DNA from: an uncultured Candidatus Melainabacteria bacterium
GTDB taxonomy: Bacteria; Cyanobacteriota; Vampirovibrionia; Gastranaerophilales; Gastranaerophilaceae
Direction: 5' to 3'
DNA: 64,000 nucleotides
NCBI GenBank assembly: GCA_947364235.1
Contig: CANARY010000001.1
Location: 186,001-250,000, forward strand
Below the pieces are notes generated by a model. That model searched no databases. It worked only from the letters and a program-made list of their open reading frames with translations, and was not told the DNA's origin. Shown piece after piece: positions 2,156 through 55,104 of this stretch (the first letter of the stretch is position 1; every line of letters begins with the position of its first letter). Made by a program: the position numbers and the translations under genes.

Positions 2156-4368
2156 ATAATTGCCTTTTTTATTTTCTGGTAAATATTTTCCCAAGAATTT
2201 TCACTCGCTTCTTTTTGAAGCAATAGTTTATAATTTTCATCATTCTTAAGTTTTAATGCTTTATTTATTAATGCAGAAAATTCTTCTTTATTATTTGCAA
2301 TCAAACAGGATTTGTAATTTTTACACTCATTCATTGCGGTTGTAACAATCGGTAAACCTTGAGCCATGTATTCAAACATTTTAACAGGACTTGTTCCTTT
2401 TGTAATGTCATTTAATAAAAACGGTATTATAGCAGCATTAAAATGTTTTGAATACTTAATTAATTCTTCAAAATTCATTTTATCTAAGCATAAAAAATTA
2501 TTATACTGATTTAGAATACTTACATCTTCTTTAACATGAGGACCAATTATTACAAAATTTAAATGCGGATTATTCTTTACTGCATATTCTAAAGTATCAA
2601 AATCAAACCATTCTTTAAAAATACAGCCGTAATAACCAACAATAGGTTTATTATCTGAAATAAATTTTTCGAAATCAGGATTAAATTTTGAATTTTGAAA
2701 AATTTCTAAATTAACACCGTTTTTTGCTATAACTATATTTTTATCTGAACCTCTGACTTCAATAGCTTGTTTATAAAGATTATCAGCTGTTGTTGATATT
2801 ATAATGTTATCGTGTTTGCAAATTGTGTTAAATCTTTTATATAATTTATTTTGAATCTTTTTTTTGGATATAAGTGTAATATCATCAAGATGTTCAAATA
2901 TTACAGGTATTTTTTTATTAGCAGCTTTTATCAATAATTTTTCTATATTGTCAAAAGTGAAATGTGTACTGATTGTCATTATGGTTTTATTTATTATCTT
3001 TTTGTTAAATACAAGCTGTTTAGTATCTTTCATCGGATAACCATAAATATTTGGAGAGTATTCAACAACAGAATTTAAGGCTTTTTCTCCCCAAGCAATA
3101 ATATATCCATCTTTGATAAATTGTTCAAATAAATGTTCCGGTCTTTGTTTCATATTTTCAAAATGAGAATATGAAGAAATAAAAATTAATATTTTTTTAT
3201 TGTTTGTAAGTTTATTTCTAAAAAACCTTACTGTTTTATTATTATTTTTAAAAAAATTTATTATATTTTGTATCATATTTATTTTTTGTCTTTTTATTTG
3301 ACTTAATTTACAAGAATTAATATTCAATATTAATTTATTTATTTGTGTATCGATTAAAAAATTTTCGCAAAAATGCTTTCTAGACGCTTCAGAAATATAT
3401 TCATAATCATTTTGAATTATATCTAAAATATTTTGTAAAGGCAATTTTATTTCTTTTAATACATAGAAATTTGAATTTGAACCTAGTAAATGATTTTTTG
3501 TTTTATAAAGAAAAACGTATGAATTTTCTTTTGCAGGTTTATCAAATAAAAAAGATAAAATAGAAGGTATTCCAATTTTTGAAGCTTCGATAAGAGATGT
3601 ACCCATTGAAAATAAACAATCTGCATTATTTTGTAAATATTCATATAATTGAGGAGGTTTGATAATTCCTTCAAAAATTATTTTAAAATATTTTGAATAA
3701 TGTTGTATATCAATTAAATTTTTAGCTTTTCCATCTCCTATAATTTTTAGTATTATTTTTTTTTCTGTTTTGTAGTTTTTAAGATTTTCTAATAAATTCA
3801 AAAGACTATAAATTTTGTCATCATCAAGACGAGAAAGCCATACAATGTTTAATTCATTTTTTGAAATAAGTTTTTTTCTTATAAAGTATTTGGAATCATT
3901 GACCATTATTGGTACTATAGGAGTGTTTTTGTGCACTAAATTTTTTATTGCGAAATTTGTTGCAGAGTCCATACTTATAAGACTTTTTTCAGCTATTGTT
4001 TTTTTTATAAATTTTGTTAGAAGTTTCTTTTTTAATCCGGCATTTTTTGCTAACCACCATATATTTTCCGGATGAAGATTCCAAAATAAAAATCTTATGT
4101 TTTTATTCAAAACTTCAGGCAAGTTATATGCAAGTGTTATTGCAGAAATTATTACTGTATTATCTTCAAGAGATATTTTATCAGCAGACGAAACTTTAAT
4201 AACTTTATTGTTTAAAAGTTGATTAGATATTCCGTCTGAATAATCAATAAAGAAAACTTTTTTATCTGAATTATCAGCAAGATAATTGGCTATTCTTGCA
4301 AAAAGTATTTCTGCCCCGCCTAAAATATAGCTCGGATAATAAAAACATACATTTCTTTTTAAATCCAA
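2152..4368 (-). CDS. Double-domain GT-B glycosyltransferase
   Basis: The 738-residue protein joins two GT-B glycosyltransferase units. The first (about 1-360) opens with [19 protein letters not shown], the GT4-type acceptor-side loop, and has a C-terminal [12 protein letters not shown] donor motif. The second (about 385-738) opens with [21 protein letters not shown] and ends with [15 protein letters not shown], an E-x7-E-type donor site. It probably adds two sugars in sequence to a membrane-linked glycan. The start is a TTG placed directly after the TAA of the radical SAM gene, with a GAGAAGG ribosome site in front, so the two genes are coupled. Its stop overlaps the next start. Confidence 0.8.
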
Positions 4369-7189: not shown

Positions 7190-8079
7190 ACTTTGCTAAA
7201 CAACCTTTTTCTCATATCTCTAAACGTAAATTTTTTCAATGATTTAGGGAGTTTATTCAAACAATCCTGATAATCTTCAGGAATATGCTTGCGCCTCCAA
7301 GGCTTACCCGGCTTTCCTGCATAATGAAGCATTACAACATTTCGGGTTTCTTTTCTAAGCTCTTCTTCCGAATAAACATGTTTTAAGAAATTAAACTCAT
7401 AAGACTTTGACCAGTCATCATGATAAAACATACTCTGAAAAACTCCGTATCTGAACGGAAGCTCATAAATTTTATTACAAGTAATGTTCAAAGCGTCTAC
7501 ATCAAAGAATTTCAACCTTGTATTGAAAGTCTTTATTGTATCGAAAATTCTCTGAACAAAGTTTTCTTCCCGCATTTTTTTCGAGTTAAACACAATGAAA
7601 CTTGAAATGAATGTAAGAGCATTTTTGTTTTCCGGAAAATACTTGTGACAAATCATATTTTCGTTATTTGGCTCCATAGCAACAGCGGCACATTCATAAT
7701 CTGAAATATCAAGATTATAAATGTCTGATAAATCGTCTTTAAATAAGACATCGGTGTCTGCGTATATTACTTTATCATACTGAGGCAGAAGCTCAGGAAT
7801 AAGCAGCCTGTAATATACAATCTCAGTCCAGCTGCCGCCTTTGTTAATCGGAGCGCCTTTGAACCTTTCTGTAGAAATATACTCAAAAGTAATTGAATGG
7901 TTTGTACCTTCAAGCATTTTTTTGAATTCACCGGCTGTTTTGTCATCAATATCCGGATGATAAATATAAATGTCATAACTTGTATCTGCTTTTGCTCTGT
8001 CAATAAGGCTTTTAATTGTTACAGCAGCGCCTAGGATAATTCTTTTATCAAAAGTAAAAACTACAGGGATTTTAGTCAT
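7186..8079 (-). CDS. Family 8 glycosyltransferase
   Basis: The 297-residue protein has the GT8 hallmarks. These are an N-terminal IPVVFTFDKRIILGAAVTIKSL, the metal-binding YADTDVLF (Asp108 and Asp110), and the C-terminal LHYAGKPGKPW. GT8 enzymes are retaining galactosyl- or glucosyltransferases, often in LPS core or wall glycan synthesis, using UDP-sugars. Its ATG lies inside the end of the upstream gene (8 nt overlap) and its stop overlaps the next start, so it sits in a coupled run of three glycosyltransferases. Confidence 0.9.
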   Translation of the reverse strand: MTKIPVVFTFDKRIILGAAVTIKSLIDRAKADTSYDIYIYHPDIDDKTAGEFKKMLEGTNHSITFEYISTERFKGAPINKGGSWTEIVYYRLLIPELLPQYDKVIYADTDVLFKDDLSDIYNLDISDYECAAVAMEPNNENMICHKYFPENKNALTFISSFIVFNSKKMREENFVQRIFDTIKTFNTRLKFFDVDALNITCNKIYELPFRYGVFQSMFYHDDWSKSYEFNFLKHVYSEEELRKETRNVVMLHYAGKPGKPWRRKHIPEDYQDCLNKLPKSLKKFTFRDMRKRLFSKV

Positions 8080-9145
8080 TAATAAGCTCCTTTAAGTTGT
8101 TTAATGATTTTTTATAAAACTCTTCTTGATATTCTTTAAGCTTAACCTGCATGTTTGAATATTCTTCCGAACTCATTTTAATGCCTTTTTCAAATGCGTT
8201 TGAATAATCTTTGTCTTCTGAATATAAAATCGCGTTTTCACTATTAAATCCGTTTAAAGGAGCAAACTCTTCAAGAATAATACAAGGCTTGGTAAAACCG
8301 TAAACAAGCTGAAAAGTGCCGCTTGTGCCTGTTGTATTGTATCTCAAATGCTGTTCGTTTCCTTTGCTGTAAGAAGTCAAAATAAAATCAGCTTTTTCAA
8401 TTTCGTCATACATTTTATCAAAAGGAAGCCTGCCTTTTATATCAAAATATTTTTGCAATTCTTTTGGAAGTTTTTTAACATGACCTTTTCCGACAACAGT
8501 AATTTTAAAATTATGAATTCCTTTTTCGTGAAGTTCTTTTGCAGCATTTATGATTAACTCATTGTTGTTTCTTTTGCCCTGAATAGCTCCGATTGTAATA
8601 AAGTTTGTAACTTCATTATTTTTTGGAGTAATTTTAATTTCTCCAAAGTAATGCGGGTTGACAACAACAGATTTTACACCTTTGTAATTCAGCTCACGCA
8701 AAGTAATTAAGCTTTCCTTCCAGCTTCCGTTATCAGCAGCATTTTTGCAGTCGTGTGAAACAAAGAAAAGTTTTTTACGGTCAGCTTGCGGATTAAAATG
8801 TTCAAAACATTCATCAAAATGAATTTCATCGCAAAGCTTACCGGAAGTTGTGACAAGAACGCCTTTTATGTCAGATAAATCGGATTTCAAAATAAATTTT
8901 TTAATATCTTTTTGGCTTAGCTTATTTAATGAAATATTTTCATCCTGATATCTTGCAAATAAACCTTCCTTGTATCTTTCAGGAGTCAGCAGGACTGATA
9001 CGTGATAACCTAAATCTCTAAGATATTTAGCATATCCCGGAATTACTTCGCTGTGCGATTTACTGCACGGTTCCCATAAAAGAAATGTATTTTCTTTTAT
9101 GACAGGCTTTTTTTGTCCAAAAAGCTTAATAAATATATTTTCCAC
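8072..9145 (-). CDS. GT-B glycosyltransferase, first gene of the glycan operon
   Basis: The 357-residue protein has a GT-B layout. An N-terminal acceptor domain contains HSEVIPGYAKYLRDLGYHVSV. A C-terminal donor domain contains FITIGAIQGKRNNNELIINAA, ITVVGKGH and GTSGTFQLVYGFTKPCIIL. It is related to GT4-type enzymes; donor and acceptor are unknown. The start is GTG at 9145, with AGGAG six nt upstream; no ATG fits better. It is the promoter-proximal gene of the minus-strand cluster, about 24 nt below a predicted promoter. Confidence 0.75.
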   Translation of the reverse strand: MENIFIKLFGQKKPVIKENTFLLWEPCSKSHSEVIPGYAKYLRDLGYHVSVLLTPERYKEGLFARYQDENISLNKLSQKDIKKFILKSDLSDIKGVLVTTSGKLCDEIHFDECFEHFNPQADRKKLFFVSHDCKNAADNGSWKESLITLRELNYKGVKSVVVNPHYFGEIKITPKNNEVTNFITIGAIQGKRNNNELIINAAKELHEKGIHNFKITVVGKGHVKKLPKELQKYFDIKGRLPFDKMYDEIEKADFILTSYSKGNEQHLRYNTTGTSGTFQLVYGFTKPCIILEEFAPLNGFNSENAILYSEDKDYSNAFEKGIKMSSEEYSNMQVKLKEYQEEFYKKSLNNLKELIND

Positions 9146-9168: not shown

Positions 9169-9196
9169 ATAATACAACTTAAAGTCTATAAATCAA
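9169..9196 (-). promoter_or_regulatory. Promoter of the glycan operon
   Basis: On the minus strand TTGATT (9191-9196) and TATTAT (9169-9174) are 16 nt apart. It directly abuts, back to back, the forward promoter of the small-peptide module that begins at 9197. Confidence 0.5.
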
Positions 9197-9225
9197 TAGA
9201 CAAAAATAATAAAATATATTAAAAT
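9197..9225 (+). promoter_or_regulatory. Forward promoter of small-peptide module 1
   Basis: TAGACA (9197-9202) and TAAAAT (9220-9225) are 17 nt apart. The predicted transcript start is about 9232, exactly at a GTAGGGC word that is complementary to GCCCTAC at 9417-9423. The same arrangement (TAGACA, 18 nt, TACAAT) precedes module 2 at 54806-54835. Confidence 0.55.
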
Positions 9226-9298
9226 ATATTTGTAGGGCTTGCACATGCAACTTCGTTACACACAGTTTTCAGAGAAATTGAACGAAAGGAGGCAAGCT

Positions 9299-9373
9299 AT
9301 GGTTGATAAAGTAATAATGCTATTACTAGCATTTGCAATAGTAGTAATAGCATTAAACCTTTTTAGACTGTAG
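9299..9373 (+). CDS. 24-residue hydrophobic peptide, putative type I toxin (module 1)
   Basis: A very strong ribosome site AAAGGAGG (9285-9292) precedes an ATG that opens a 24-codon frame. The peptide has a short charged start (MVDK), about 17 hydrophobic residues (IMLLLAFAIVVIALNLF) and a basic-hydrophobic end, as in membrane-acting type I toxins. The coding region contains a perfect 13-bp inverted repeat (9316-9328 with 9342-9354). The leader word GCTTGC (9237-9242) can pair with GCAAGC (9292-9297), next to the ribosome site and start codon. An antisense promoter lies at 9430-9458. No family is recognised. The peptide itself is well supported, the toxin role is inferred. Confidence 0.6.
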   Translation: MVDKVIMLLLAFAIVVIALNLFRL

Positions 9374-9423
9374 GGTGCAGAGGGCTCTTAAGGTTTGCTT
9401 AGTACTTAGGAGCACCGCCCTAC
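9316..9423 (-). ncRNA. Putative antisense RNA of module 1
   Basis: The convergent promoter at 9430-9458 predicts a minus-strand RNA starting near 9423 with GTAGGGCGG. It would be fully complementary to the 3' part of the peptide mRNA. This part has a 9-bp stem, GCTCTTAAG with CTTAGGAGC. The 13-bp inverted repeat at 9316-9354 could serve as its end, although the T-run after it is weak. The 3' limit is a guess. Confidence 0.45.
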
Positions 9424-9429
9424 TTTTAT

Positions 9430-9458
9430 ATTATTTACCATATTTGAACATTTGTCAA
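9430..9458 (-). promoter_or_regulatory. Antisense promoter of module 1
   Basis: A perfect TTGACA (9453-9458) and AATAAT (9430-9435) lie 17 nt apart on the minus strand. The -10 and following bases match the equivalent promoter of module 2 almost letter for letter (TAAATAATATAAA then a GGGCGG start region). Confidence 0.65.
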
Positions 9459-9464
9459 TCGCCT

Positions 9465-11696
9465 TCAGCTTCGTGTTAAAGACAACAATATTTCTTGCGG
9501 AATGTAAGTATTTTTTACTCCGGAATCTGTATTTGCCATAAAAAATTCAACAGTTTCGCCTTCTTCTATTCCAAGTTTTTCAAATGGAATACAAACGTCG
9601 ATTACATCTTCGTAAACAATTTTGATATCTTCCGGATTATCAAGAGTCCACATATTCGGATGCAATACAGCTGTAAGCCTTGGAGGATAAAGCGTATCTT
9701 TAATCAGAGTCAAAGTAAGCTCGTGTTCAAATTTTTCAGTCAAAATCGGATACGGATTATCTGTTTTGCTTATAAGCCTTATATAAGCTCTGTTTCCGAC
9801 TCTGGAAGCGTTTCTTGTGTAAATATAAAACTGATTAATCCTGTCTACAAAGCTGATTTCTCCGGAACCTTTATTAACATGGAGCCTGAAATAGATATTT
9901 TTTTCGTCACATCCGAAAAGAATTTTATCTACATTTTTGTTCTCTCTAAATACCGGACCATCTAATAAGCTTAAAGAACCTGCATTGTACCAGTCATCAT
10001 AACTTGTATTCAAACCGTCCATTCTTGGAGTAATATTTCTTTTAGGATGCCTGAACGGTACTTCAATAGAAGTAATAAGCGTTTTATCAAGATACTCAGG
10101 ATATTTTCTGCCCAATATAATGTACACATTTTTAAGCCGTTCTCGAAACATATAATCAAAAACATAATCCTGACCGGAGTTGTTCGGTTCTCCGTACCAC
10201 CAGAACCAGTCGCTGCCTTCTGCAATTAAAATTTCACGTTTTGCGTATTTGAGATTTGGATTTGAGCTGTCTTCTTTTGCAAACTTGTCAAAGTCATCTT
10301 TTGTATTTTTTAAATAATTCCAAGCTTTGTTTTTTTCGTTTTCACCAATCCAGTACTGGAAAGTTTTGTCAATCCAGGAACCCGAATAAATCTTTTTTAG
10401 AGTTTTTTTGCGGCTGTCTTTTTGGACATAATCACTTATTAAAACTGTTTCAAGAGTCGGGTCGTTTTCTATCATTTTATAAATATTTTCAAGAAAATCT
10501 TTACCGTCGTTTTGATAGTTTTCCCAGCAGTTTTCGCAGTCTGAAGCGATTGTTAAAAGGTGTGTTTCGTCAGGAGATACAAGAAGCTTATTTTGAATCA
10601 TTTTTATTTTTTCAAACAAATCTCCTGCAGCCATTTTCGGGTTAATTCCTGCATATTCAAAATTTATAAGATTTGGAATAGAACGGTCTCTAAAAATTAT
10701 GTCTATTCCATTTGTTTCATAGTTATAAACTTTTAAAAGGTGATAAGGGTCGTTTAAGTTTCCTTTAAAATCACGGATAAAATCAAAGTTAATTGAGTTT
10801 GATAACACGCCTTCATCAGAAATTGTCCATTTAATACCTTCTTTTGCAATCAGGTTTAAAGTTTTTGGTCCCAGGCAAAGTTCCGGAGGCCACATACCTT
10901 TCGGGCGGACTCCAAAAATTTCTTCTATTCTATCAAGCGCGCTTTTTATTTGTAATTTTGCATCTTCAAGCATTCCGAGAGACTGCGGAAGTCCTTCCGT
11001 TGTTATTACAGATTTAACAGAAGATTTTATATCAATCAAAATCGGCAGAATTGCGTGGTAATAAGGACTTGTAGTAAGCTCAATTCTTCCTGTTTGGATG
11101 TATTTTTTATAAGTTGGAATAATCTCGCGAATGATTTGTTTTTGAATATCGATTATTTCAATTCGGTCTGCTTTTGTGTATCCGGTTTGTTTCGACCACA
11201 ACTCTTTTAGACGCGGATATCTGTCAAAATGAACAGGGTCAATCCAAACAAGATTAAATAAAGCCATCAAATCAGAAATTTCTTGAGCTGAAAATTCGCT
11301 GATATCTGCAGAGTCTTTAGCGAAACGTTTCTGATAAAGGTTTTTATAAGTTTCGCTCCTATAAATCATTGTTTCATATTTAGAGCTGAAAAAGTTGTTT
11401 AAGATAAACGCTTTTTCTTCATCACTAAGTGTTTCCGAGTCAGATACGGTAAGTTCTGAATGAATATCGTGGTACCCGTTTTCTGAGTAATCAAGAATTG
11501 AGTCAAGAAGTGCAGGAACAAGGTTAAAGTTTAGCTTAAGTTTCGGGAACTTTTCTAAAACAAGAACCATATCAAGGTAATCTTTGACTGCGTGAAGCCT
11601 TACCCATGGCATCAAATATGTTCCTTCAAGTTCGTAGACAGGCTGATGCATATGCCAGTAAATGGCAAGAGAAAGTTTCTTCACACGCGTATTCAT
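9465..11696 (-). CDS. Glycoside hydrolase family 57 protein (amylase / glucanotransferase type)
   Basis: This is a 743-residue GH57 enzyme. Conserved region 1 is YWHMHQPVY. A catalytic-glutamate region is GMWPPELC, as in WxPE-type GH57 enzymes. A later DCENCWENYQNDG matches the aspartate-bearing DxEN region. A C-terminal beta-rich module follows from about residue 560. It likely acts on alpha-glucan (glycogen-like) in the cytoplasm, as no signal peptide is seen. The start at 11696 (MNTRVKKLSL) is preferred to the longer frame at 11732 because a good promoter ends 8 nt upstream; there is no ribosome site, so the mRNA may be leaderless. Confidence 0.85.
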   Translation of the reverse strand: MNTRVKKLSLAIYWHMHQPVYELEGTYLMPWVRLHAVKDYLDMVLVLEKFPKLKLNFNLVPALLDSILDYSENGYHDIHSELTVSDSETLSDEEKAFILNNFFSSKYETMIYRSETYKNLYQKRFAKDSADISEFSAQEISDLMALFNLVWIDPVHFDRYPRLKELWSKQTGYTKADRIEIIDIQKQIIREIIPTYKKYIQTGRIELTTSPYYHAILPILIDIKSSVKSVITTEGLPQSLGMLEDAKLQIKSALDRIEEIFGVRPKGMWPPELCLGPKTLNLIAKEGIKWTISDEGVLSNSINFDFIRDFKGNLNDPYHLLKVYNYETNGIDIIFRDRSIPNLINFEYAGINPKMAAGDLFEKIKMIQNKLLVSPDETHLLTIASDCENCWENYQNDGKDFLENIYKMIENDPTLETVLISDYVQKDSRKKTLKKIYSGSWIDKTFQYWIGENEKNKAWNYLKNTKDDFDKFAKEDSSNPNLKYAKREILIAEGSDWFWWYGEPNNSGQDYVFDYMFRERLKNVYIILGRKYPEYLDKTLITSIEVPFRHPKRNITPRMDGLNTSYDDWYNAGSLSLLDGPVFRENKNVDKILFGCDEKNIYFRLHVNKGSGEISFVDRINQFYIYTRNASRVGNRAYIRLISKTDNPYPILTEKFEHELTLTLIKDTLYPPRLTAVLHPNMWTLDNPEDIKIVYEDVIDVCIPFEKLGIEEGETVEFFMANTDSGVKNTYIPQEILLSLTRS

Positions 11697-11703
11697 AACA
11701 GAA

Positions 11704-11732
11704 AGTATAACGTAAATTTGCACTATTCGCAA
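11704..11732 (-). promoter_or_regulatory. Promoter of the GH57 gene, leaderless type
   Basis: TTGCGA (11727-11732), 17 nt, TATACT (11704-11709) on the minus strand. The predicted transcript start falls at or within 1-2 nt of the ATG at 11696. Confidence 0.55.
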
Positions 11733-53798: not shown

Positions 53799-54808
53799 GA
53801 AAACTATTTTTTCTGCTTTTTGTATCAATTTTCTTGTGTTCTTGTACTAAAGACAAAAAAGAAGAAATAACGTTTTCTTCTTGGGGTTCTGTGACAGAAG
53901 TACAGGTTTTAAACCGGATTATTTCTGAATTTGAACAAGAGAATCCTGATTTGCGGGTTAATCTCATGCATATTCCGCAGAACTATTTTCAAAAAATCCA
54001 CCTTCTGTTTGCTTCTTCTCAAGCTCCGGATGTGATTTTTATCAACAATCTTAATCTGCCTATGTACACTTCTAAACTCGAAGATTTGACGGAAATCGCT
54101 GATAAAGATGCATATTACCCTGAAAGCTTGCAGGCTTTGAGTTATGAAGGCAAGCTTCTGGCTGTTCCAAGAGATGTTTCGACTCTTGTGTTTTACAGAA
54201 ACAAGGATTTGATTAAAACTGCTCCAGCTGATTTGGACGAGTTTTTAGATGTTGTATCAAAGTGTCAGGAGTTTGGTGTAAGTTTTGAAAGAGATGCGTA
54301 TTTCATGTTTCCGTATTCTCTTACAATGGGTGAAGATATTTTTTATCCTGAGAAATCGCTTGAGTTTTATAAAGAACTTGAAGGCAAATATGCTCCGACT
54401 CCTGCTCAAGCAGGGAGTTTAACTCAGGCACAGATGTTTTTGGATGGAAAAATCGGTTTATATCTTTCTGGCAGATGGCTTTTTTCGAAAATTAGCGAAA
54501 GTGCAAAATTTGATTGGGATGTAATTACTTTTCCCGGAATCGTACCTCTTGATGCTTCTGGCTGGGCAATTGCTAAAGATACAAAACACAGGGAAAGTGC
54601 AGAGAAGTTTGTTAAGTTTCTCTCTTCTAAAGAGAGCAGCGAGTATTTTATGAATACAGGGCTTGTTGTGCCTGCGCGAATGGATGTTTCAAAAAATATT
54701 GATAATAAGGTGTTTTTAGAAGCAATAAAAAAATCAAAACCGATTTCAATTAATAAAGATTACAGGAAAACGGTTGACAAGATGAATAAGAATTATTTCA
54801 ATATATAG
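53792..54808 (+). CDS. Extracellular solute-binding lipoprotein (family 1 type)
   Basis: The 338-residue lipoprotein has the signal and lipobox KLFFLLFVSIFLCSC (Cys18). Its mature part is like sugar-binding ABC receptors: ITFSSWGSVTEVQVLNRIISEFE, APDVIFINNLNLP, VPRDVSTLVFYRNKDL, MFLDGKIGLYLSGRWLF and AEKFVKFLSSKESSEYFM. The ATG overlaps the end of the acidic protein gene by 7 nt. No ABC permease or ATPase is adjacent. It may serve a transporter elsewhere or present ligand to the chemosensory system upstream; the latter is conjecture. Confidence 0.85.
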   Translation: MLRKLFFLLFVSIFLCSCTKDKKEEITFSSWGSVTEVQVLNRIISEFEQENPDLRVNLMHIPQNYFQKIHLLFASSQAPDVIFINNLNLPMYTSKLEDLTEIADKDAYYPESLQALSYEGKLLAVPRDVSTLVFYRNKDLIKTAPADLDEFLDVVSKCQEFGVSFERDAYFMFPYSLTMGEDIFYPEKSLEFYKELEGKYAPTPAQAGSLTQAQMFLDGKIGLYLSGRWLFSKISESAKFDWDVITFPGIVPLDASGWAIAKDTKHRESAEKFVKFLSSKESSEYFMNTGLVVPARMDVSKNIDNKVFLEAIKKSKPISINKDYRKTVDKMNKNYFNI

Positions 54809-54835
54809 ACAAAATACTGTATGGTGTAGTACAAT
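54806..54835 (+). promoter_or_regulatory. Forward promoter of small-peptide module 2
   Basis: TAGACA (54806-54811), 18 nt, TACAAT (54830-54835). The predicted start near 54842-54843 puts GCAGGGC (54843-54849) at the 5' end of the transcript. The -35 overlaps the stop region of the lipoprotein gene. Confidence 0.55.
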
Positions 54836-54934
54836 ATATTCAGCAGGGCAAAGAATAGCTCTTTTTGAAAAGGAACCATCTCACAATTAATGTGGTAGAC
54901 TTTCGGGATGGTACCCGACTAGAAAGAGGTCAAT

Positions 54935-55024
54935 ATGAACGACATCAATTTGACTATATTTTTAATCTTTTTGATTTTGAACATATTAAAAACGGTTCTC
55001 ATTCTGATGAATAAGAACCGCTAG
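54935..55024 (+). CDS. 29-residue hydrophobic peptide, putative type I toxin (module 2)
   Basis: AAAGAGG (54923-54929) precedes the ATG by 5 nt. The peptide has a polar start (MNDIN), about 18 hydrophobic residues (LTIFLIFLILNILKTVLIL) and a basic end (MNKNR). Its leader holds CTCTTT (54859-54864), complementary to the AAAGAG of the ribosome site, and an ACCATC/GATGGT stem. Sequence identity with the 24-residue peptide of module 1 is low, but size, hydropathy, promoter, flanks and antisense promoter are the same. The toxin role is inferred. Confidence 0.6.
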   Translation: MNDINLTIFLIFLILNILKTVLILMNKNR

Positions 55025-55069
55025 ACTTTCTACAGAGCTATTGGCTGGTCTAGCAAACCGCCGCCCTGT
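54986..55069 (-). ncRNA. Putative antisense RNA of module 2 with intrinsic terminator
   Basis: The promoter at 55076-55104 predicts an RNA of about 84 nt starting near 55069. It contains a stem GCTAGAC / GTCTAGC (arms 55048-55054 and 55020-55026). It ends in CGGTTCT / AGAACCG (arms 55014-55020 and 54993-54999) followed by five T on the minus strand (54988-54992). It covers the 3' third of the peptide frame and the whole 3' end of its mRNA. Confidence 0.55.
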
Positions 55070-55075
55070 GTTTAT

Positions 55076-55104
55076 ATTATTTACGATTTTATTATAATTG
55101 TCAA
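55076..55104 (-). promoter_or_regulatory. Antisense promoter of module 2
   Basis: TTGACA (55099-55104), 17 nt, AATAAT (55076-55081) on the minus strand, the same boxes and spacing as at 9430-9458. Confidence 0.65.

Follow-up and report, generated by a model that had tools for sequence, protein, structure and literature searches.

A candidate family of type I toxin-antitoxin-like modules in Gastranaerophilales with an antisense terminator signal inside the peptide ORF

A compact cassette between opposing promoters

The window analysed here is a stretch of 64,000 nucleotides from a Candidatus Melainabacteria genome (order Gastranaerophilales). Positions 9197–9458 of the window form a 262-nt promoter-to-promoter cassette, in which a sense promoter, a leader hairpin, an AGGAGG sequence, a short ORF and a structured 3' end are closed by an opposing promoter. 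The cassette lies between a gene of a glycosyltransferase cluster (8072–9145, minus strand), which itself had no Pfam match, and a GH57-family gene (9465–11732, minus strand; Pfam PF03065). The features of the cassette, and the position of a second one in the window, are as follows.

9197–9225, plus strand: sense promoter, TAGACA-17-TAAAAT (promoter scan, 10/12)
9458–9430, minus strand: antisense (putative antitoxin) promoter, TTGACA-17-AATAAT (promoter scan, 11/12)
9232–9238, plus strand: predicted mRNA 5' end, GTAGGGC, pairing with 9417–9423 in a covarying helix
9252–9286, plus strand: leader hairpin TTCGTT...AACGAA, an inverted repeat that stops just before the SD
9285–9292, plus strand: ribosome-binding site AAAGGAGG (sequence)
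9299–9373, plus strand: ORF of 24 codons, peptide MVDKVIMLLLAFAIVVIALNLFRL, putative toxin (ATG at 9299, TAG at 9371–9373)
9297–9303, plus strand: start-codon side of the start/stop helix, pairing with 9367–9373
9367–9373, plus strand: stop-codon side of the start/stop helix (covariation)
9315–9355, minus strand: palindromic hairpin within the ORF, candidate stem-loop of the antisense intrinsic terminator (recoding tests)
9303–9314, minus strand: candidate U-tract of the antisense terminator, TTACTTTATCAA, encoded by codons 2–6; weak here, strong in other members
9370–9376, plus strand: GTAGGGT, a repeat of the 5' word that spans the stop codon and could pair with 9417–9423 in an alternative state
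9417–9432, plus strand: 3' word GCCCTAC (9417–9423) and U-rich tail TTTTATATT (sequence); probable sense terminator end
9303–9423, minus strand: predicted antisense RNA of about 115–121 nt with two stem-loops (fold z −4.08; inferred ends)
54806–55104, plus strand: second cassette in the window, type II, peptide MNDINLTIFLIFLILNILKTVLILMNKNR, ORF 54935–55024

All of the elements that a preliminary description had named for 9197–9458 were found in place on inspection of the sequence, and the two promoters that it had proposed came out as the top-ranked pair in a promoter scan of the region. Among the loci of the family described below, the −35 element called ahead of the 5' word is also most often TAGACA (42/116). 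The sense 3' end at 9417–9432 overlaps the −10 element of the antisense promoter, and GTAGGGC is the first word of both predicted transcripts, the plus-strand one starting at 9232 and the minus-strand one at 9423. The ORF encodes a hydrophobic single-helix peptide of 24 aa. A leader pairing between GCTTGC and GCAAGC, which had also been proposed, can be found in this copy but does not extend to the family at large, and the lowest-energy fold places the bases concerned in a local hairpin rather than in the claimed pairing.

Copies, distribution and a shared scaffold

BLAST and the antisense promoter pattern identified nine cassettes in the genome (9197–9458 and 54806–55104 of the window, C1:87022, C1:97264, C1:173862, C1:178499, C3:165519, C4:79649–79917 and C4:103856). 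The pattern TTGACA-N14..19-AAATAATA has nine matches genome-wide, eight of which are cassettes, and its backwards control has one; the cassette at C1:97264, whose promoter ends in AATG, was missed by the pattern. Because the layout recurs nine times in the genome, the cassette at 9197–9458 is not a product of chance. When the collection rule demanded, besides the antisense promoter, a ribosome site and, at the right distance, a hydrophobic ORF of 15–45 codons, 129 cassettes with 116 distinct peptides were obtained, all from one taxonomic family of the Gastranaerophilales, in which they span at least 11 genera by a hand tally of locus handles. Related copies, the search for which had been proposed at the outset, are therefore found in the genome and beyond it. 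The ORF starts 143–195 nt from the antisense TTGACA in the collected cassettes (n = 129). The family peptides are 20–32 aa long with one hydrophobic stretch, hydropathy having been computed for 129 members, and simple sequence motifs divide them into at least six types, with a few others besides.

Type I: VDKIIMLLLAFAIAVIALKL (includes the 9197–9458 copy)
Type II: DNFNISLLLIFLILYILKNGSYLNR (includes the window copy at 54806–55104)
Type III: TREIIKTVITVIITVLKIIIIWL
Type IV: IIKALVILELLAKLILAILQL
Type V: SLGVFLLFDFLIEQYKEKAPELELLELFLKS
Type VI: IFAISEKALIIIWLILITLLFIK

The signature TTGACA-N14..16-GTAAATAATA was detected in 94 of 239 genomes of the same taxonomic family, representing 27 of 41 genera, and the reversed pattern gave almost no matches. 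The promoter signature was found in none of 22 genomes from the order's other families and in none of 84 sampled genomes from the remaining class and phylum. A peptide profile search gave matches in 21 of 115 genomes, and the antisense promoter, with no more than one mismatch, lies 143–172 nt from the start codon in 22 of the 23 distinct members found by the peptide profile alone, so that the opposing promoter noted in the preliminary description is a conserved one. Random windows mostly showed five to seven mismatches to this promoter, and the few exact background matches are most likely windows that fell on a cassette.

This type of TTGACA promoter is not specific to the putative toxins, because it also precedes pseudopilin-like genes in related genera. 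The pseudopilin-like genes (FTLAEVLITLGIIGVVAA) share a TTGACA-N14-GTAAATAATA promoter and were observed at L123:~2940–3300 (reverse strand) and in L124, L128, L132, L186, L193, L199, L204, L209, L217 and L224. Close to the gene start they have a tract of about 10 C (exactly C10 in 22/28 loci), and in 17 of the 28 no start codon shares the frame of the pilin motif; the possible explanations are phase variation or, with a fixed C10 tract, programmed slippage. In genus g71 (L113–L119, pattern position 1500) the promoter sequence recurs within an apparently conserved coding region and not in a cassette; this match may be due to chance and kept by coding conservation.

The closest relatives of the 9197–9458 copy are 82–87% identical to it and have unrelated flanks. 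Their homology starts at 9196–9232 and ends by ~9466, and homology stops at the two −35 boxes; most genomes of the genus have relatives of the flanking genes elsewhere. A common scaffold underlies types I, III, IV and V, and that of type II is distinct. When type I and type III members of the L190 array were compared, the leaders were 86% and the 3' regions 93% identical, but the ORFs only 57%; for type V in L111 and type III in L203 the corresponding values were 89%, 76% and 43%, against a shuffled-sequence baseline of ~48%. One copy, on a viral contig, lies between phage tape-measure and baseplate genes, and another pair of copies adjoins a terminase gene; all viral contigs together hold only 10 exact promoter matches. 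At L111:223–2440, seven modules of three peptide types stand in tandem at ~320-nt spacing with no intervening genes, and shorter tandem arrays are present in L247, L190 and L162. An integron cassette array was considered for L111, but inspection of the spacers by eye showed nothing attC-like.

Coding selection, RNA structure and the terminator signal within the ORF

The reading frame is intact across relatives, a point on which the preliminary description had laid weight. In the type I cluster the mean dN/dS is 0.28 and the differences at codon positions 1, 2 and 3 stand at 725:177:792, arguing that the peptide is under selection; these figures are approximate, since the hairpin constraint acts on the same codons. 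Degenerate copies exist (e.g., L108, L109, L205 and L213). In L089 and L202, both of type I, an extra reading frame (MNPASSDYTSLEEKKKAMIIDKIIMLLL...) is fused upstream of the hydrophobic peptide and preceded by poly-G, possibly giving two start sites. Searches of Pfam, NCBIfam and PHROGs with seven family peptides returned no meaningful match, Rfam returned none at the gathering threshold or at E ≤ 5, and BLAST against 50,697 phage records found no match to the cassette. BLAST against plasmids gave one match, to a Staphylococcus plasmid (34 nt, 13% of the query), which falls within the palindrome and was dismissed as chance.

The RNA from 9232 to 9430 (199 nt) has a predicted energy of −68.8 kcal/mol (z −5.75), and 0 of 200 dinucleotide shuffles folded as well; the folding check proposed in the preliminary description thus gave a result in its favour. 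We compared 28 type I RNAs in an alignment that was built without structure and from which the structure was partly derived; the four-helix structure is paired in 94.2% of cells as against 30–57% when the partners are slid, and contains 64 double-change cells as against 20 in shuffles. Among these RNAs, the helix between the 5' and 3' words is paired in 94.8% of cells, the ORF hairpin in 96.4% and the start/stop helix (9297–9303 with 9367–9373) in 97.4%, G/A in codon 2 covarying with C/U before the stop codon, and the leader hairpin shows double changes at 6 of 6 pairs. The complementarity of GTAGGGC and GCCCTAC, one of the first features to be noticed, is retained across members by covariation, the words being GTAGGGC/GCCCTAC, GCAGGGT/ACCCTGC, ACAGGGT/ACCCTGT or ACGGAGT/ACTCCGT. 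With all types included, an exact 5'–3' complement of at least 7 nt is present in 38.8% of members, compared with 10.1% of swapped pairs and 1.3% of shuffles.

Predictions favour the full-length RNA in its folded form, with a mean probability of 0.87 for the 5'–3' helix and of 0.87 for the start/stop helix. In the modelled fold it is the start codon, more than the SD, that is occluded, which refines the original proposal. An alternative 3' hairpin between 9370–9376 and 9417–9423 is pairable in 98.4% of cells, but the fold of the full-length RNA gives it a probability of ~0.01, making it a predicted minor state. The predictions do not account for an activation by 3' trimming in the style of AapA or Hok, and we do not claim one, as the start/stop helix is predicted to persist after the last 7 nt are removed and the start codon is not released.

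Every peptide type has a palindrome in its ORF, which in type II spans the stop codon. When folding of the CDS was compared with that of synonymous recodings, types I and III–VI gave mean z values of −3.3 to −4.7 and 9299–9373 gave −4.55, whereas the type II CDS, cut at the stop codon, gave −0.9. Read on the antisense strand, the ORF hairpin is followed by a U-tract. With a strict terminator criterion (stem ≤ −9 kcal/mol, T score ≥ 3), the signal was detected on the antisense strand in 96 of 116 members and on the sense strand in 8 of 116. The antisense signal was better than in at least 95 of 100 synonymous recodings for 113 of the 116 members, and none of 100 recodings of the 9197–9458 copy was as good as the native sequence; this signal had played no part in the selection of members. 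Types II, III and V have textbook-looking terminator signals (T5 to T9). In type I, the 9197–9458 copy included, AT-rich stems are combined with a broken U-tract (TTACTTTATC), and for this reason a standard terminator scan of the 9197–9458 copy found none.

Given that the ORF hairpin is the candidate antisense terminator, the predicted antitoxin RNA would extend from ~9423 to ~9303, over the 3' half of the mRNA. Its pairing region would comprise the 3' UTR and most of the ORF but leave out the ribosome site. That the antisense RNA most probably has its end within the ORF, short of the ribosome site, is a further refinement of the preliminary description. The conserved TATTATTTAC would serve the antisense promoter as its −10 box and probably the sense terminator as its U-tract, a double role that would explain its near-invariance.

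Interpretation and relation to known type I systems

The type I toxin-antitoxin-like layout that had been recognized at 9197–9458 is supported by the copies, the intact frames, the excess folding, the covariation and the conserved opposing promoter. We think it probable that the locus belongs to a new, lineage-specific family of such modules, operating by the following mechanism. The weaker, TAGACA-type promoter would direct synthesis of an mRNA of ~190 nt from 9232, encoding a single-helix membrane peptide that is presumably a growth-inhibiting toxin. The full-length mRNA would fold shut, with its 5' end on its 3' end and the start codon on the stop-codon region. From the stronger opposing promoter, an antisense RNA would start at the 3' end of the mRNA and terminate at the hairpin encoded by the peptide's own codons, and would therefore be complementary along its whole length to the 3' half of the mRNA. 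It would then bring about duplex formation and decay resembling that caused by RatA and SR4, perhaps of the RNase III type, and keep translation off.

One could envisage instead that the peptide is a small membrane regulator or stress protein and not a toxin, its level being tuned by a cis-antisense RNA, so that the same RNA anatomy would serve ordinary gene regulation. Not all known small hydrophobic proteins are toxic, and the members are chromosomal, intact and under purifying selection; however, a module that is patchily distributed, has nine paralogues per genome and unrelated flanks, and turns up in mixed tandem arrays and in phages suits a selfish or defence role better, and the peptide sequence is freely swapped on the same scaffold. 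We regard this explanation as unlikely. Rather more doubtful is a phage-related module, encoding a small membrane protein that would serve in superinfection exclusion, the timing of lysis or abortive infection and be silenced by an antisense RNA; the chromosomal copies, that at 9197–9458 among them, would be leftover or domesticated forms. The copies inside phage tail genes and beside a terminase gene accord with such an origin, but several copies whose surroundings were read, including that at 9197–9458, lie among chromosomal genes, and the scarcity of exact promoter matches in viral contigs and the lack of a match in the phage records also speak against it; it overlaps with the toxin-antitoxin reading rather than excluding it. 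A MITE-like element, or another non-autonomous mobile element, whose terminal inverted repeats would be GTAGGGC...GCCCTAC and whose promoters and ORF would be incidental, would account for the inverted words at both ends, the multiple copies and the unrelated flanks, but is very improbable, since the homology reaches beyond the inverted words as far as the two −35 boxes, the end words vary between members yet stay complementary, the ORF is under coding constraint, and the leader, start/stop and ORF helices covary.

As a toxin-antitoxin-like module, the cassette shares features with several known systems. Like AapA/IsoA of Helicobacter pylori (PMC6733600), it is multicopy and chromosomal, encodes a small membrane peptide, has ORF hairpins and a cis-antisense RNA (predicted here), and its full-length mRNA would be shut by a 5'–3' long-distance interaction, as judged here from covariation and folding. 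It differs in that the IsoA promoter is within the ORF region and its antisense RNA covers the leader, whereas the promoter here (9430–9458) is past the mRNA 3' end, and in that AapA sequesters the SD, whereas here the start codon pairs with the stop region (PMC6733600). AapA and the family peptides look unrelated by eye and there was no library match, a comparison that has little power at a length of 24 aa. TxpA/RatA and BsrG/SR4 of Bacillus subtilis (PMC3531473, PMC4147584) likewise have an antisense RNA on the 3' part of the toxin mRNA (predicted here) and are associated with prophages, and the RatA terminator hairpin is also within the duplex region. In those systems, however, only the 3' ends overlap, by about 75–120 nt, and the antitoxin originates past the toxin gene, whereas the antitoxin here is predicted to be nested, running from the exact 3' end of the mRNA into the ORF; TxpA (59 aa) and BsrG are also longer toxins (PMC3531473, PMC4147584), and the family peptide has no library match. 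Hok/Sok resembles the cassette in its inactive full-length mRNA with 5'–3' end pairing and its small membrane toxin (putative here). In contrast to Hok/Sok, no mok-like frame was seen here, the 67-nt leader leaving little room for one, there was no significant Rfam match, and the predicted antisense RNA is on the 3' side instead of in the leader. In the cyanobacterial phylum a single type I pair has been reported, according to its authors, namely MsoT1/MsoA1 of the photosynthetic species Microcystis aeruginosa, a single 63-aa toxin with two predicted helices and a different topology (PMC12390103). The layout described here thus joins a 5'–3' closure, as in AapA and Hok, to a predicted antisense RNA on the 3' side, as in TxpA/RatA and BsrG/SR4, and by the features tested it belongs to none of them.

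The preliminary description knew of no such system in this lineage, and in agreement with this, searches of open papers, which leave subscription journals mostly uncovered, retrieved nothing relevant on type I systems in Melainabacteria or on toxin-antitoxin systems in Gastranaerophilales. These are common gut bacteria with practically no genetics; the module is plentiful as well as compact, and it can be tested in E. coli. Type I modules are notoriously hard to predict; a hairpin and U-tract on the antisense strand of a hydrophobic ORF of 20–30 codons provides a search rule that may uncover others. The chances are about even that one scaffold hosts interchangeable toxin ORFs of at least six unrelated types, each of which also encodes the terminator of the antitoxin RNA on its other strand. 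If this is true, the terminator requirement would shape which toxins can evolve, and the exchange of unrelated peptides on one scaffold would make the origin of new toxins directly testable.
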